Shown here: in pieces, positions 10,629 through 25,162 of the stretch
How the letters are laid out: each line of letters opens with the position of its first letter
Numbering within the stretch: the first letter of the stretch is position 1
Assembly: GCA_027858315.1 (NCBI GenBank)
Contig: JAQICV010000103.1
Span: 1 to 51,184 of the forward strand
Direction of reading: 5' to 3'
Origin: Candidatus Woesearchaeota archaeon
Lineage (GTDB): Archaea > Nanobdellota > Nanobdellia > Woesearchaeales > UBA583
Length of the DNA stretch: 51,184 nucleotides
Position numbers and translations under genes: made by a program
The notes under the pieces: generated by a model
What the model was told of the DNA's origin: nothing
Seen by the model: the letters and a program-made list of their open reading frames with translations, nothing else
Database searches by the model: none

Positions 10629-11315
10629 ATGGAATTTAAAGTTAAACCTTTTGGAATTGGTAGATATTGGGATTATTTGAAAGTAATTTTTTTTATTATG
10701 TATAAGAGACTTCTAGAGTATAAAGCAAACTTTTGGAGCTCTTGGCCACTTGAATTAATTTATTTTATTTCTATGATTTTTTTTTATAGAGTAATCTTTG
10801 ATAATTTTGAGAGTGGTTTGTTTTGGACATTTGAAGATTTTATTTTACATATGATTCTTGCAGCTTTGCTTTTTGGAATTGGAGGTATATTTATGTGGAA
10901 GGAGCTACTTTTCGAATTTATTAAATCAGGTGAATTGAATCAGTTTTTAGTAAGACCTATGAATAGGATTTATCTGTTTTATACTTCGTCATTAGCTTCT
11001 CCAGCAGTTGTTTTTATACTTACTGATATTATTGCATTAATTTTCTTCTTTTTATATTTTGATATACATACGGAGAGAATTTTTTTTAGTTTTTTAGTAA
11101 GCATTCTTATTTTATTATTTTATTTAGTAATTTATTTTTTCATGTTATTTCCAATATTTTTTATTGGTACTTTACTTATTCCAATTTTAAGAGGATATGA
11201 TGTTTGGAGAATAGAATTACAATTTAGTATTTTGATTGGTTTAATAATTTTATTTTTTAGTTTGACAAGAGTTATGTGGCATTATGGTCTAAAGAAATAT
11301 GAGGTGTTTGGATGA
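10629..11315 (+). CDS. ABC-2 permease B (COG3694-like)
   Basis: A 228-residue integral membrane protein with about six hydrophobic segments. It starts with an amphipathic YWDYLKVIFFIMYKRLLEYK segment, as in ABC-2 permeases, and ends in WHYGLKKYEVFG. The same C-terminal motif (WHYGLKKYEALG) closes the next gene, so the two are paralogues. In COG3694 the ending GLxxYxxxG is a family mark. Its 3' end overlaps the next start by 4 bases (ATGA), which indicates translational coupling. Confidence 0.8.
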   Translation: MEFKVKPFGIGRYWDYLKVIFFIMYKRLLEYKANFWSSWPLELIYFISMIFFYRVIFDNFESGLFWTFEDFILHMILAALLFGIGGIFMWKELLFEFIKSGELNQFLVRPMNRIYLFYTSSLASPAVVFILTDIIALIFFFLYFDIHTERIFFSFLVSILILLFYLVIYFFMLFPIFFIGTLLIPILRGYDVWRIELQFSILIGLIILFFSLTRVMWHYGLKKYEVFG

Positions 11316-12115
11316 GAATGGAAGTATTTCGAAAAAGATCAATATTAATGAAATATTTGGAGATATATCATATTAAAATTGTTCTTGCATTAAAAAGATC
11401 TAAGGAATATAAAATTAATTTTTGGATGATGACTTTTTTTGATTTAACTTTATTATTAACAACATTATTATTTTTTTATACTTTAAAAGGTTTTATTGGA
11501 GAAGTTATAAATTGGAATATGTTTGATTTTTTTGTATATTTTACTTTAGATCTTATCTCTTGGAAAGTTTTATGGCAACATAATTTGAGAGATTTTCCAA
11601 ATAGATTATTGCAGGGAGAATTAAATGATACTCTCATGAGGCCAGTTAATATTTATTTTATGAGTTCAATAAAACTTGTTAGTGGAAATAATTTAGTTTC
11701 ATCAATATTTATGATTTCTTATTTAATTCCTATTATGATTATGTTTTATACTAATTTCTATTTAGCATGGTTAGTGATTATATTTTCATGGTTTTATTTT
11801 ATGGCATTTGCAAATTTTTTAGATTCATTTTCTTTCTTTTTCAAACGAGTTGAGATGTTAATTGATGTACCTTACAGATTAAATTCAGTTACAAAGAGAT
11901 TTACGCCAAAACTTTTTGAAAATTTTTCATTGTTTGGAGTTATTTATTTGATGCCTGCTGCAGTTCATGCATTTTTTATAATTGAGATCATGAAGGGAAA
12001 TTCGCAAATTTTTTTTGATTTTTTTAATCTTATATTTGGAAGTTTTATATTTTTTATATTTGGAACTTTTGTTTTATGGCATTATGGTTTAAAGAAATAT
12101 GAGGCTTTAGGATAA
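11312..12115 (+). CDS. ABC-2 permease C (COG3694-like)
   Basis: A 267-residue membrane protein with about six TM segments, paralogous to the preceding gene: N-terminal YLEIYHIKIVLALKRSKEYK, a central DTLMRPVN segment matching QFLVRPMN in permease B, and the shared ending WHYGLKKYEALG. One ATPase with three permease genes suggests a heterodimeric channel plus a third subunit, or a replacement for the frameshifted permease A. It is the last gene of the operon; the next gene is 42 bases away. Confidence 0.78.
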   Translation: MRMEVFRKRSILMKYLEIYHIKIVLALKRSKEYKINFWMMTFFDLTLLLTTLLFFYTLKGFIGEVINWNMFDFFVYFTLDLISWKVLWQHNLRDFPNRLLQGELNDTLMRPVNIYFMSSIKLVSGNNLVSSIFMISYLIPIMIMFYTNFYLAWLVIIFSWFYFMAFANFLDSFSFFFKRVEMLIDVPYRLNSVTKRFTPKLFENFSLFGVIYLMPAAVHAFFIIEIMKGNSQIFFDFFNLIFGSFIFFIFGTFVLWHYGLKKYEALG

Positions 12116-20674: not shown

Positions 20675-21175
20675 ATGAACTGCCCATATTGTAATGATTC
20701 GGAAATTAAAGTAATTGACTCTAGAGAGAGTAAGGACGGCTCTTCCATTAAGAGAAGAAGAGAGTGCTTTGGTTGTTCTAAGAGATTTTCTACTATTGAG
20801 AAAATTCTAAAGCTTGACTTAGAAGTTAAGAAGTCAAATGGTGATATAGAAGTTTTTAATCTTCAGAAAATTAAAAGAAGTTTGCTTAAGGCTTGTGAAA
20901 AAAGACCTGTTACCCTAGAACAGATCGAAGAGTTAACTGAAAATATTTTAAAAGATTTAAAGAAAGTAGAAGAGTCTTCAATTCCTACATCAACAGTTGG
21001 GAGTATTGTTCTTCGAAACTTGAAAGATGTTGATGAAATTGCCTTTTTGAGATTTATTATTGTACATAATGATTATCAGAATTTATCAGAATTCATGGAT
21101 GAAGTTGGAAAGTTGAAAAATTTTGATGGACTAACATATAAGAGAAGTAAAGAAAAAGTAATATTAAGTGAGTAA
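20675..21175 (+). CDS. nrdR: Transcriptional repressor NrdR
   Basis: A nucleotide-sensing repressor of ribonucleotide reductase genes. The N-terminal zinc ribbon uses C3, C6, C31 and C34 (MNCPYC and ECFGC), followed by the ATP-cone domain (VKKSNGDIEVFNLQKIKRSL, then LLKACEKRPVTLEQIE). I start at ATG 20675 so that the protein begins MNCPYC as in other NrdR proteins; GTG 20669 would add two residues. It stands 1 base before nrdJ, so they are co-transcribed. NrdR is typical of bacteria, and its presence with matching operators in an archaeal window suggests past transfer of the set. Confidence 0.92.
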   Translation: MNCPYCNDSEIKVIDSRESKDGSSIKRRRECFGCSKRFSTIEKILKLDLEVKKSNGDIEVFNLQKIKRSLLKACEKRPVTLEQIEELTENILKDLKKVEESSIPTSTVGSIVLRNLKDVDEIAFLRFIIVHNDYQNLSEFMDEVGKLKNFDGLTYKRSKEKVILSE

Positions 21176-21176
21176 A

Positions 21177-23729
21177 ATGGCAGATATGACAAAATTAGAG
21201 GCGAATACAAACATGGTCCAAACCAAATCAGAAGTTAAAAGAGATGAGTTTTTCAAGAAAATTGAAGGTATGTTTTCTCATAAGAGTAAACTTTCTAAAA
21301 TTATTGATCCACAAGTGATTGTTAATTATAAGGAGACTTATTTTTATTTATTTGAAAAGATTCAAAGTGGAGAGCTTCCTTGTATGAAAGATTATTTTTC
21401 AGGGAATGTTTTAGCAAAGAATATTTATAAGAATAAATATTATTTGAAAGATTTATCCAATAAACATATTGAGGAGAGAGCAGAAGATGTTTTTTTAAGA
21501 ATTGCATCTTATGTTGCTGCAGTTGAGGAGACTCAAGAACTTCGTGAGGAGTATGCTGAGAAATTTTATAGAGATTTATATGATGGTTATTATTTGCCTG
21601 GTGGAAGAGTTTTAGCAGGAGCTGGTGATTTATTTAGGATTAAAACTCTTGCAAATTGTTTTGTTTCTGTTATTGGTGAGGATAGTTTGGAAGGTATCTA
21701 TAAAGCTGCTTATGAAGCTGCAAGGACTTATTCATATGGTGGAGGAATTGGTATAGATATTTCTCAACTTAGACCTAAGGATTCTAGAGTTCATAATGCT
21801 GCAGACCAGTCAACTGGAGCTGTTAGTTTTATGGAACTTTATTCTTTAACTACTGGACTTATTGGACAATCTGGTAGAAGAGGCGCTTTAATGCTTACTA
21901 TTGATGTTAAACATCCTGATGTTTTGGATTTTGTTAATGTTAAAAAAGATCCATCTTGGACTACTAATCAAATTATGAGTAGAATTAAGTCTATTGAGAC
22001 TCTTGGTATTGATGAATTAGAGAAAATTCAAGATGAGATTATTGAGAATGTTCAAATTAGATTCGCAAATATTTCTATTAAAACTTCTGATGAGTTTATG
22101 CATTCTGTTGAAGAGCAAAATTTGTATGGTAAAAATAAAATTTTAGTTTACAAGAAGAAACAAAAAGGAGGACCTATTGAAGGAAGGGCTGCTGATGATC
22201 ATAATTATTCTTATGGTATTTCTGATAAAAAATTAGATGATTATGAGTTACTTGATAAGTTTAGTAATGTTGAAGAACTTAATGAGTATTTACTTGATAA
22301 AAATTTGTCTTTAATTAAAAAAGAGCAATTGGATGATGTTTCTAATAGGGATTTTTATGGTGATTTTGTTATGGAGTCTACAAGTTTAGATTATGATTTA
22401 GCTATTAAGTATTCGGGAGATTTCTTGACTTATTTCAAGTCTGGTTCTGTTGGTGAGATTAAAGAGTTACACAAAGCAAGAGATGTTTGGAATAAATTTG
22501 TTGAAGGAAATTATAAAACTGCTGAACCTGGATTAATTTTCTGGTCACAGATGAGTAAGTATTCTCCTTCTAATTATGTTGGAAGACCTATTGCTTGTAC
22601 TAACCCTTGTGGTGAGGTTCCTTTAGAAGATGGTGGAGCTTGTAATCTTGGTTCTATTAATTTATCTAGGATGGTTAAGAATGGTTATACTAGTGAGGCA
22701 AGTGTTGATTGGGATTTGCTTGCGAGTAGTACTTCTAATGTTGTAAGATTTTTAGATAATGTTGTTTGGTGGAATGAGACACTTAATGCGCTAGATAAAC
22801 AAAAAGCATCTGCTCACGATACTAGAAGAATTGGAGTTGGAGTTATGGGTATTGCTGATATGTTTTTTCAGTTAGGCATTGCATATGATAGTGAGCAAGG
22901 TTTAAATTTACTTGAGAAAGTTATGAATCATATGACTCAAAATGCATATAAGACTTCTGCGAATTTGGCTAAAGAGAAAGGGGCTGCTCCTTGTTATGAT
23001 GCAGCAGGATATTTGAAGAATCCATTTTATATTGAAGTTTTAGATGAAGATGTTAAAGAATTAATTAAGGAACATGGAGTTAGAAATATTGCTATTATGT
23101 CTATTGCTCCAACTGGGACTATTTCTAATGCTGTTTGTGGTATGAGGTTTGGAGATAAAAATTATATTGGTATTAGTGGTGGTATTGAGCCAGTTTTTGC
23201 TCTTTATTATTCAAGAAGATCTGAGCAGATGAATCAAGGCGCAGTCTATAAGATTTTCCATAATACAGTTCAAGCATATATTGATATGAAAGGTTTGAAT
23301 GAGCAAGTTCAAGGAATTGAAACAGAGGAAGGCTTGAAAAAGATTTTGCCTGCACACTTTTTCAGGACTGCGCATCAAGTATCTCCTGATATGAGAGTTA
23401 AGTTTCAAGGAAAAGCGCAAAGATTAATTGATCATAGTATTTCATCAACTGTTAATTTACCTGAAGATGTTGATCCAGAAGTTATTTCAGATATTTATTT
23501 GAAGTCATGGAAAGAAGGATTAAAGGGAATTACAATTTATAGGGATGGGAGTCGTTATCCAATTTTAAGTGTTGTTGGAGATGAGACTGATTTTCAAAGA
23601 TTTAAGGATAAGAAGTTTAGAATTAAAGATGGAGAACAAATAAAAGAAGTTCATGGAAATGAGGTTTTAGTTATGCCCTCAGGAAAATTAAGTACAATTT
23701 ATCATGTTCAAAAAGGAGGTACAAATTAA
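21177..23729 (+). CDS. nrdJ: Class II (B12-dependent) ribonucleotide reductase, catalytic chain
   Basis: Makes deoxyribonucleotides using an adenosylcobalamin-derived thiyl radical. From ATG 21177 (850 residues) the active-site set N-x-C-x-E is in ACTNPCGEVPL (N476, C478, E480), the redox cysteines are C161 (LANCF) and C489 (GGACNLGSINL), and the phosphate-binding loop is APTGTISN. The chain stops at HVQKGGTN before the C-terminal TSCPD and cysteine-rich tail found in one-chain NrdJ; these are encoded separately at 23846. GTG 21168 is an alternative start. Confidence 0.92.
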   Translation: MADMTKLEANTNMVQTKSEVKRDEFFKKIEGMFSHKSKLSKIIDPQVIVNYKETYFYLFEKIQSGELPCMKDYFSGNVLAKNIYKNKYYLKDLSNKHIEERAEDVFLRIASYVAAVEETQELREEYAEKFYRDLYDGYYLPGGRVLAGAGDLFRIKTLANCFVSVIGEDSLEGIYKAAYEAARTYSYGGGIGIDISQLRPKDSRVHNAADQSTGAVSFMELYSLTTGLIGQSGRRGALMLTIDVKHPDVLDFVNVKKDPSWTTNQIMSRIKSIETLGIDELEKIQDEIIENVQIRFANISIKTSDEFMHSVEEQNLYGKNKILVYKKKQKGGPIEGRAADDHNYSYGISDKKLDDYELLDKFSNVEELNEYLLDKNLSLIKKEQLDDVSNRDFYGDFVMESTSLDYDLAIKYSGDFLTYFKSGSVGEIKELHKARDVWNKFVEGNYKTAEPGLIFWSQMSKYSPSNYVGRPIACTNPCGEVPLEDGGACNLGSINLSRMVKNGYTSEASVDWDLLASSTSNVVRFLDNVVWWNETLNALDKQKASAHDTRRIGVGVMGIADMFFQLGIAYDSEQGLNLLEKVMNHMTQNAYKTSANLAKEKGAAPCYDAAGYLKNPFYIEVLDEDVKELIKEHGVRNIAIMSIAPTGTISNAVCGMRFGDKNYIGISGGIEPVFALYYSRRSEQMNQGAVYKIFHNTVQAYIDMKGLNEQVQGIETEEGLKKILPAHFFRTAHQVSPDMRVKFQGKAQRLIDHSISSTVNLPEDVDPEVISDIYLKSWKEGLKGITIYRDGSRYPILSVVGDETDFQRFKDKKFRIKDGEQIKEVHGNEVLVMPSGKLSTIYHVQKGGTN

Positions 23730-23730
23730 A

Positions 23731-23844
23731 ATGTCACAAGAACTAAAATTAGGAATAAATGTACATACTAAGTATGCAAATTTAGGTACAATTGAATCTA
23801 TGATTCAAGGTATCATTTTTAATTTTTACGGAGGTAAAATTTAA
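23731..23844 (+). CDS. 37-codon ORF between the RNR chains
   Basis: ATG 23731 follows a GGAGGT Shine-Dalgarno (23715-23720) that lies inside the end of nrdJ, and the reading frame (begins MSQELKLGINVHTKY, ends FNFYGGKI) runs to TAA at 23842. A second GGAGGT-like site (23830-23835) near its end serves the next gene. The position and good ribosome-binding site support translation. It resembles no family I know. It could be a leftover linker from splitting one NrdJ chain, or a translation coupler. Confidence 0.45.
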   Translation: MSQELKLGINVHTKYANLGTIESMIQGIIFNFYGGKI

Positions 23845-23845
23845 A

Positions 23846-24517
23846 ATGGAAAGTATAAATACAACTGATTTCATCATTGAAGAAGTTAAAATTGAACCAA
23901 TTGAAGAGGAAGCTAAAGTAGTTGTTTTAGAAGATGATAAGTCTAAATTAAAACCTGCAGTTATTAGCATAAGAGAAGATATTATGGATAGACCTGATAT
24001 TGTTGAAGCTAAAGTTTACAAACTTAAGAGTAGATTTGTTAAAGAGAATATGTATATTACTATGAGTTATATTAAGGATGAAGAGACTGGGATTAATAGA
24101 CCTATTGAGATTTTTATTAATTCTAAAGATTTATCTAAGCTTCCAGAGTATACTGTCTTAACTAGACTTATTTCAGCAATTTTTAGACATTTTAATAATC
24201 CTAAGTTTATTTTAGAAGAGCTTCAAAGTGTTTATGATCCTAATGGAGGATATTTTATGAAGGGTAAATATATTTATTCTTTCTATAGTGAGATTGCTCT
24301 TATTATTGAAAAATTCTTTATTGACATTGGATTTATGAAAGAAAAAGAGGATGGATTAGATAATTGGATTGATACTGCAAAGAAAGCAAATCCTGACAAA
24401 AAAATTGAAGTTAATAACTTTAAGATTTGTCCAAATTGTAATCAAAAATCTCTGCAAATTGATGGTGGTTGTTTGAATTGTATTAACCCAGAATGTGGAT
24501 ATAGTAAGTGTTCGTAA
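23846..24517 (+). CDS. Class II RNR C-terminal chain (TSCPD domain + zinc ribbon)
   Basis: This 223-residue protein matches the C-terminal part of NrdJ. It has the TSCPD-type domain (GINRPIEIFINSKDL, LISAIFRHF, YDPNGGYFMKGKY) and then a cysteine-rich tail with C195, C198, C209, C212, C217 and C222 (CPNCNQ, CLNC, ECGYSKC). In one-chain NrdJ this tail re-reduces the active-site disulfide, so the two proteins should form a complex. The N-terminal 40 residues are acidic. Its last 14 codons are repeated downstream at 25101. Confidence 0.85.
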   Translation: MESINTTDFIIEEVKIEPIEEEAKVVVLEDDKSKLKPAVISIREDIMDRPDIVEAKVYKLKSRFVKENMYITMSYIKDEETGINRPIEIFINSKDLSKLPEYTVLTRLISAIFRHFNNPKFILEELQSVYDPNGGYFMKGKYIYSFYSEIALIIEKFFIDIGFMKEKEDGLDNWIDTAKKANPDKKIEVNNFKICPNCNQKSLQIDGGCLNCINPECGYSKCS

Positions 24518-24536
24518 AGAATACTTTTTTAATATT
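24475..24536 (+). repeat. Direct repeat copy 1 (3' end of nrdJ tail gene)
   Basis: The final codons (NCINPECGYSKCS plus stop) and a following TACTTTTTTA. Matched by copy 2 at 25101-25162: nearly all differences inside the coding part are synonymous, including Ser AGT against TCT. Confidence 0.75.
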
Positions 24537-24550
24537 AAAAACTTTATATT

Positions 24551-24610
24551 GTTTCGCTATTGCATTAGAAATTAAGGCGTTTAGTGCCCTGGATAAAACC
24601 AGAGCGAGAC
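24551..24610 (+). ncRNA. Foldable three-way-junction RNA
   Basis: An 8-bp closing stem GTTTCGCT (24551-24558) with AGCGAGAC (24603-24610). It has one U-G wobble that pairs only if the plus strand is transcribed. Inside are a short GGC/GCC hairpin (around 24577-24588) and a CTGG/CCAG hairpin with loop ATAAAA (about 24589-24602). A perfect CCGTC/GACGG hairpin (about 24673-24685) stands before the next ORF. The segment is richer in G and C than its surroundings. No known class recognised; TTTATATT at 24543-24550 might instead be a TATA box. Confidence 0.35.
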
Positions 24611-24700
24611 ACAAAACTAAAAAGATTTGTTTTGCATACTTTTTATGCATTTCATTTCTTTAAAAACATTTGCCGTCGATGACGGAGTAACAAACTAAAA

Positions 24701-24991
24701 ATGAATAAACATAAAAATTTTAAAAAAAAATCTAGTCTAAGTACTAGAAGAAAAGAAAAAGATACTGATTTAGGTGATTTTGCAAAAAAGATTATGCAAG
24801 GAATAGTTATGACTCATAAAGCAGGAGGAGGTGGCCTTGTTGTTATGGCAATAGGAAGTGTAGGTTTTTTGTTTTTATTCTTATTAGGTTCAAGTATGGA
24901 AAATAGAACATTTTATTCTTTATTATTTGTTTCTATAATACTTTTATTAATAGGTGTATATATTAAAATTAGTGAAAAAAATAATTCATAA
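24701..24991 (+). CDS. Small two-TM membrane protein, unknown
   Basis: A 96-residue protein with a strongly basic start (MNKHKNFKKKSSLSTRRKEK), a soluble helix, then two hydrophobic segments at about 44-64 and 70-88 joined by a short polar loop. Not a family I recognise. It is the only gene in the roughly 0.6 kb segment bounded by the duplicated nrdJ tail, and it lies between two foldable RNA regions. Confidence 0.55.
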   Translation: MNKHKNFKKKSSLSTRRKEKDTDLGDFAKKIMQGIVMTHKAGGGGLVVMAIGSVGFLFLFLLGSSMENRTFYSLLFVSIILLLIGVYIKISEKNNS

Positions 24992-25000
24992 GAATTATAT

Positions 25001-25095
25001 CCTTTTTAGCCTCGTTTTTTAGGCGAGTTAGGTGTAGAGTTCTCAAATACAAATGGAACTCGAAACCATCAATTTTTATGAGCCGTTAAAAAAGG
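25001..25095 (+). ncRNA. Second foldable multi-stem RNA
   Basis: A long-range stem CCTTTTT (25001-25007) with AAAAAGG (25089-25095) encloses a CTCG/CGAG hairpin (25011-25014 with 25024-25027) and a longer hairpin: GGTG (25031-25034) with CATC (25067-25070) and GAGTTC (25037-25042) with GAACTC (25056-25061). A G-U pair in the GGTG/CATC stem favours plus-strand transcription. It ends just before the copied nrdJ tail. Confidence 0.35.
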
Positions 25096-25100
25096 TGAGT

Positions 25101-25162
25101 TCGAATTGTATTAACCCTGAATGTGGTTACTCTAAGTGTAGTTAAAATAATACTTTTTTATT
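25101..25162 (+). pseudogene. Copy 2 of the nrdJ tail: isolated zinc-ribbon fragment
   Basis: Reads SNCINPECGYSKCS and stop in the homologous frame, followed by TACTTTTTTA as in copy 1. The frame has no start of its own, so the fragment is not a gene. It looks like the displaced original end of the gene (or an imported one) after an insertion at the 3' end, or like a decayed tandem duplication. Confidence 0.65.

Follow-up and report, generated by a model that had tools for sequence, protein, structure and literature searches.

Known DDE elements generate target-site duplications (TSDs) that are short and of fixed length. The MITEs of prokaryotes, as presented in the available portion of a 2024 review (PMC10969869), are short, carry inverted repeats and come with target duplications, and long gene-end duplications do not figure in that portion of its account. 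Here we analyse a stretch of 51,184 nucleotides from a Candidatus Woesearchaeota archaeon (contig JAQICV010000103.1; hereafter the window), in which the 3' end of a ribonucleotide reductase (RNR) gene recurs beyond a small insert, and compare it with further loci in related genomes.

The gene concerned (23846..24517, plus strand) encodes the C-terminal tail of a split class II RNR. It is intact, ends in ...NCINPECGYSKCS*, has an ortholog with 77% amino acid identity in the congener G003, and its product matches the Pfam TSCPD domain at E=1.9e-4, slightly short of the curated cut-off. Over 21168-24517 of the window the class II enzyme is divided into an 853-aa gene, a small ORF and this separate tail gene. 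The functional end of the gene (copy 1, 24471..24531, plus strand) occurs again at 25099..25160 on the same strand (copy 2), with 51 of 61 positions identical and a local alignment score of 65. The repeat that had been called from the letters of the window is thus real and starts about 4 nt before the position first given for it. Its near-exclusively synonymous character likewise holds: every codon difference between the copies is synonymous, including a Ser AGT/TCT pair, and a second Ser, counted by hand, is TCG in one copy and AGT in the other. Elsewhere in the window another ORF end is repeated (11271-11313 and 12071-12113, 37/43 identical, 757 nt apart); these are probably neighbouring paralogous membrane-protein genes and not an insertion.

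The ORF list and RNA folding agree with the original prediction that the insert comprises two foldable RNAs and a small membrane protein, with no integrase, transposase or other recombinase gene encoded between the two copies of the RNR-tail end. The first RNA segment (24540..24690, plus strand, boundaries approximate; z=-3.39 with 24518-24700 folded) has no second copy in its own genome and no match in Rfam. It is followed by the gene for a 96-aa membrane protein (24701..24991, plus strand), for which tblastn detected no relatives in G003 or the other fetched loci, and whose sole Pfam match is a sub-threshold, holin-like one (E=0.013). The second RNA, which we term E, occupies 24998..25101 on the plus strand and abuts copy 2. 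A covariance model (CM R1), built partly from this very copy, scores it at 108.3 bits. Its conserved core (GAGTTCTC...GGAACTCGAAACCATC) spans 25030..25072, and a match to a second copy behind the thermosome gene of the same genome, with 93% identity over 43 nt (E=2.4e-11), is independent of R1.

A search for further copies of the insert at other gene ends, as had been proposed, revealed that E is a family with no fewer than 20 members, spread over four genomes of a single nanoarchaeal genus: three in the genome of the window (G000), 14 in DT_72 (G002), two in UBA583 (G005) and one on a contig labelled 'Arcobacter sp. UBA7394'. The two further copies in the window's own genome lie behind the thermosome gene (G000:C91), whose end is likewise duplicated around a ~100-nt element devoid of an ORF, and behind a 77-aa gene. 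R1, which represents these three copies, recovered relatives in two congeners, and a second model, R2, recovered the 14 clear copies of DT_72 and the two of UBA583; R2 misses the E of the window, whose membership therefore rests on its likeness to the C91 copy. E was not detectable in G003. All the genomes are metagenome-assembled (MAGs), with completeness of 88% for DT_72 and 73% for UBA583. On the 'Arcobacter' contig (DKNG01000260.1, L162) E lies behind glgP; of the 18 kb fetched, genes in the first ~14.9 kb are 44-74% identical to those of DT_72 and those beyond are bacterial, making the contig a likely chimera or transferred glycogen-gene island. Cross-domain spread of E to Arcobacter was rejected, as the E-bearing part is nanoarchaeal, and a second Arcobacteraceae match proved to be a low-complexity artefact. 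A first exact pattern for E found no match in 84,980 genomes, and a looser one matched only in this genus, on the 'Arcobacter' contig and, by chance, in one Sphingobacterium MAG. Exact pattern scans of IMG/VR and blastn searches of phages and plasmids yielded no E; in Rfam 15 no match exceeded the gathering score, and permissive thresholds gave nothing convincing.

At 19 of the 20 copies, that is, at every testable one, E sits between direct repeats of the adjoining gene, which are 30-240 nt long and derive from a different gene in each case; at the twentieth (L069) a contig end 112 nt away cuts the locus off. The start of copy 2 and the 3' end of E are no more than ~7 nt apart at 18 of the 19 loci, the exception being L070, where E is longer by 54 nt. 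Copy 1 stops near the T-rich 5' side of E, or else cargo intervenes, which in L043 is a membrane protein of 92 aa and in the window the 96-aa membrane protein and an RNA. E stands 3' of the gene's end and in its sense orientation at 18 of the 19 loci. At L046 the duplicated segment is instead a 5' end; the gene in question lies on the opposite strand, and its N-terminus, in a hand translation, is of the UvrC/GIY-YIG type. The single locus L037/L040 carries two tandem copies of gene end plus E. The targets of E include genes for ribonucleotide reductase, the thermosome, DNA polymerase D, RIO kinase, UvrA and XerA, and related hairpins occur at the UvrB and TopA genes. A tyrosine recombinase encoded at L036 appears to be a host XerA, itself a target of E.

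E is missing from some orthologs of its target genes. Neither the glgP ortholog of DT_72 nor the ABC-F ortholog of the UBA7394 contig has a duplicated end, the E-less orthologs compared sharing only ~71-77% protein identity, so that they are not strain-level empty sites. The relatives are too distant for orthologs to separate the native copy from the other. The presence of E follows no apparent vertical pattern. At L060 and L070 the E of two species lie in homologous genes, and because their start points differ the two insertions would appear to be independent. Copy number, taken with presence and absence, points to E being mobile.

The 19 distinct sequences of E (~95-105 nt) are predicted to fold into a single long hairpin, interrupted and built of three helical tiers. 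In this model 92.6% of cells are paired, against at most 59.4% when the partners are slid, and two-sided changes occur in 21 of 32 pairs, against 10.5 in shuffled data, both counts being biased towards the fold by an alignment that was fitted to the model. In view of how large the effect is, and of the slid controls, we regard the modelled fold as safe. Its outer helix comprises 11 pairs, with 95% of cells paired. G.U pairs occur at several positions, at one of them in 16 of the 19 sequences, and they lie on the top strand; therefore, the folding strand is the one in sense with the duplicated gene. Immediately beyond the precise 3' junction, GA is found at +3..+7 from the end of E in 14 of 17 target sites, against a background of 26%, and apart from this preference the 17 sites have no common core. 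Differences between the copies cluster at the start of copy 2, over its first 7 nt, even where the remainder is identical or nearly so (L063, L064, L068 and glgP), and these short tracts resemble scars left by the joining reaction.

Beyond the junction, the changed codons of 26 loci comprise 97 synonymous and 57 nonsynonymous ones, where 148+/-5 nonsynonymous would be expected under neutrality and where noise in some of the alignments inflates the nonsynonymous count. Several pairs of ends are mosaic: an ABC permease has 0 of 58 and then 19 of 39 codons changed and topA 0 of 19 and then 15 of 22, with the pattern reversed in uvrB (2 of 2, then 0 of 21). Overall, 47 of 291 codons are changed in the junction-proximal half against 100 of 291 in the distal half, counts that include the low-complexity topA end and a uvrA profile extended by hand; the distal excess may partly be due to weakly conserved protein C-termini. 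At apparently young sites the copies past the junction either are identical (polD, RIO kinase) or differ very little (two differences in 153 at L063; 2 of 34 codons in glgP). The mostly synonymous, mosaic differences suggest that the gene ends diverged as working alleles, and the mosaic codon pattern implies that, at least partly, the ends have their origins in separate lineages. To this extent the codon counts and mosaics favour the earlier proposal that the ends had diverged as functional coding sequence before they met, just as the copies of E at other gene ends favour a small element between them. That E itself brings the replacement end, a further part of that proposal, is possible, but the mosaics are also expected from ordinary allelic recombination around an existing insertion.

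E is not alone in this arrangement. When G003 (1.19 Mb) and DT_72 (~800 kb) were scanned for ORFs whose end recurs no more than 1 kb downstream (score >=48), 16 of 1037 and 31 of 780 ORFs respectively qualified, against 1 and 0 with permuted partners; part of the matches are tandem paralogs, and a chance origin of the RNR-tail repeat is excluded. Further small hairpins between duplicated ends were seen, namely F2 (uvrB and others), F3 (topA, RNR), F4 and F5, along with a few 5'-end duplications around small inserts. In G003 (L113:7400-7740, G003:C2) the same RNR gene end is duplicated, but around an unrelated hairpin, and copy 2 is itself broken by a ~62-nt insert. The palindromes of F5 (GGCTTAGAAATTT..AAATTTCTTGA) stand in tandem in L182:1865-2081 and recur in L207, L183, L217 and the tail of L045, between or inside duplicated gene ends.

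The explanation that we favour, tentatively and at a little under even chances, is that E is a small structured mobile element whose insertion creates a long target duplication of variable length, which homologous recombination then shuffles. E would be non-coding and non-autonomous, its ~95-105 nt folding as a hairpin on the top strand, with an enzyme presumably supplied in trans. Its 3' end would join precisely at a point X, within a gene or close to one, and the 5' end would be joined at a point Y 30-240 nt downstream, as in an insertion at long staggered ends, so that the X-Y stretch becomes duplicated and the order body, copy 1, optional cargo, E and copy 2 results. Only insertions preserving one intact copy of the gene would survive, and Y would for this reason lie mostly at or after the stop codon. 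Identical direct repeats at such short spacing should vanish by recombination, and the survivors may be those in which ordinary homologous recombination has partly replaced one copy by a diverged allele, leaving mosaic, mostly synonymous differences. In the window E may have come with the membrane-protein gene and the RNA, or have gained them later. The 5'-end duplication of an opposite-strand gene at L046 argues for insertion with duplication over the targeting of gene ends. Against this explanation, no enzyme producing such long and variable duplications was found; viability alone would allow 5'-end or antisense cases more often than the one observed; and breakpoints within such short stretches at so many loci depend on the survivorship argument.

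There is bacterial precedent (PMC3240628) for DNA that integrates through homology on one side and is joined illegitimately on the other, and a one-sided event of this kind is the next candidate, although we consider it rather improbable. A linear, hairpin-ended DNA comprising a gene end, E and ~7 nt would recombine through the homology in the gene end and be joined illegitimately at X, in the manner of the homology-facilitated illegitimate recombination that accompanies DNA uptake. A single step would yield copies that are alike near X and diverged beside E, and would account both for the short junction scar and for the like behaviour of unrelated hairpins. The donor, however, must already link E to the end of each gene, the reverse mosaic of uvrB exists too, and E is a homologous multi-copy family as opposed to a set of random ends.

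The original prediction itself envisaged an element that targets a conserved gene 3' end and brings a replacement; we take this as an integrative element that uses an attachment site at gene 3' ends. The functional E-adjacent end, diverged as coding sequence, speaks for it, but we now judge it unlikely: the inserts of E that were examined contain no integrase, the youngest sites have near-identical ends, and specialised targeting of a conserved 3' end is at odds with a different target gene for each copy, the absence of a common att core, the 5' end duplicated on the opposite strand at L046 and the several unrelated hairpin families that behave likewise.

Scarcely different in our estimate, and slightly lower, stands retrotransposition, in which an RNA ending in the hairpin E would be copied at a nick at X by target-primed reverse transcription. 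The precise 3' end, the variable length of the duplication and the junction scars would all follow, and a fold on the top strand is usual for such copying; yet no reverse transcriptase (PF00078) was found by Pfam search in E-rich DT_72 or in UBA583, both incomplete MAGs. The sole one found in the genus is partial and lies at a contig end in the window's own genome (L083, G000:C82). An ORF on its other side resembles, by eye, a tyrosine recombinase. A diversity-generating retroelement was rejected, as the differences are not particularly at adenines and the E-rich genomes lack a detected reverse transcriptase.

Far less probable is RNA-guided homing, according to which E and the start of copy 2 would form a scaffold-guide RNA and copy 1 would have been recoded against cutting. 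The junction exactly at the 3' end of the hairpin, the synonymous recoding and the confinement of the uvrB changes to the first codons speak for it, but overall the junction side is the least changed, so that most first copies would still be targets, and Pfam searches of the incomplete MAGs DT_72 and UBA583 found no TnpB-type or Cas12f-like domain (PF07282). The TnpB-type match of G003 is a Cas12a-like C-terminal fragment beside cas4, cas1 and cas2 (L157, G003:C35), that is, a type V CRISPR locus whose genes were named by reading their proteins. A self-splicing intron excising copy 1 and E was also rejected, since known intron folds are unmatched and frameshifts at the copy 2 junction would wreck the product. 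That the repeats arose by chance, through faulty assembly or from a tandem duplication in decay, which might be entertained because all the genomes are MAGs and one carrier contig is likely a chimera, is least credible of all: the 0-1 matches of the permuted controls and the covariation of the fold refute it, the same E is present across independent assemblies, and no copy 2 holds a whole gene.

Essential genes are normally closed to insertion, and elements of the E type, in duplicating the end of a gene, leave the encoded protein complete; should the mechanism prove correct, it would constitute a new route for a tiny non-coding element into the most conserved genes. Such elements may be hidden elsewhere, as standard searches for fixed-length duplications, transposase genes or Rfam families are blind to them, and the E loci offer a natural recombination marker in poorly known nanoarchaea. 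It is conceivable, though doubtful, that they represent an undescribed class of mobile element, in which a ~100-nt structured nucleic acid writes itself and a working gene end behind genes, sparing essential ones, possibly by copying of a hairpin-ended RNA or single-stranded DNA.

Literature searches of partial coverage returned nothing describing the arrangement of E. We rate its kind as new and hold the mechanism open, because the defining features that were tested for MITEs, integrative elements, IS200/IS605 relics, TnpB systems and retroelements are not all present in E. Like MITEs, E is below 500 bp, AT-rich, non-coding, present in several copies per genome and flanked by direct repeats, and it has imperfect terminal inverted repeats (TCAATCTTTTTT / AAAAAAGGTTGA). 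Unlike those of MITEs, its direct repeats are neither short nor fixed, being 30-240 nt long, variable from copy to copy and built of diverged gene ends; moreover, its interior fold is under covariation and a parent transposase was not found. In these incomplete genomes no larger element sharing the ends of E was seen. With the archaeal and phage elements that use tyrosine recombinases at att sites in gene 3' ends it shares a gene end on both sides, a conserved frame and synonymous divergence, but it differs from them in having no integrase, a length of only ~100 nt, a new target for each copy, no shared core and, at times, a 5' end as its target. Elements of the IS200/IS605 type and their relics (PATEs, REPs) are, like E, small hairpins acting on one strand, but they insert without target duplication, and in six genomes no Y1 transposase matched above the cut-off. 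The precise 3' junction, the duplication of variable length and the structured RNA recall target-primed retroelements of the LINE/SINE-like kind, in contrast to which no reverse transcriptase was found in the E-rich genome. Finally, although E has neither an integrase nor whole gene cassettes, and inspection by eye did not reveal the attC core (GTTRRRY and its complement) in it, it resembles integron attC sites in being a folded site directly 3' of gene stops.
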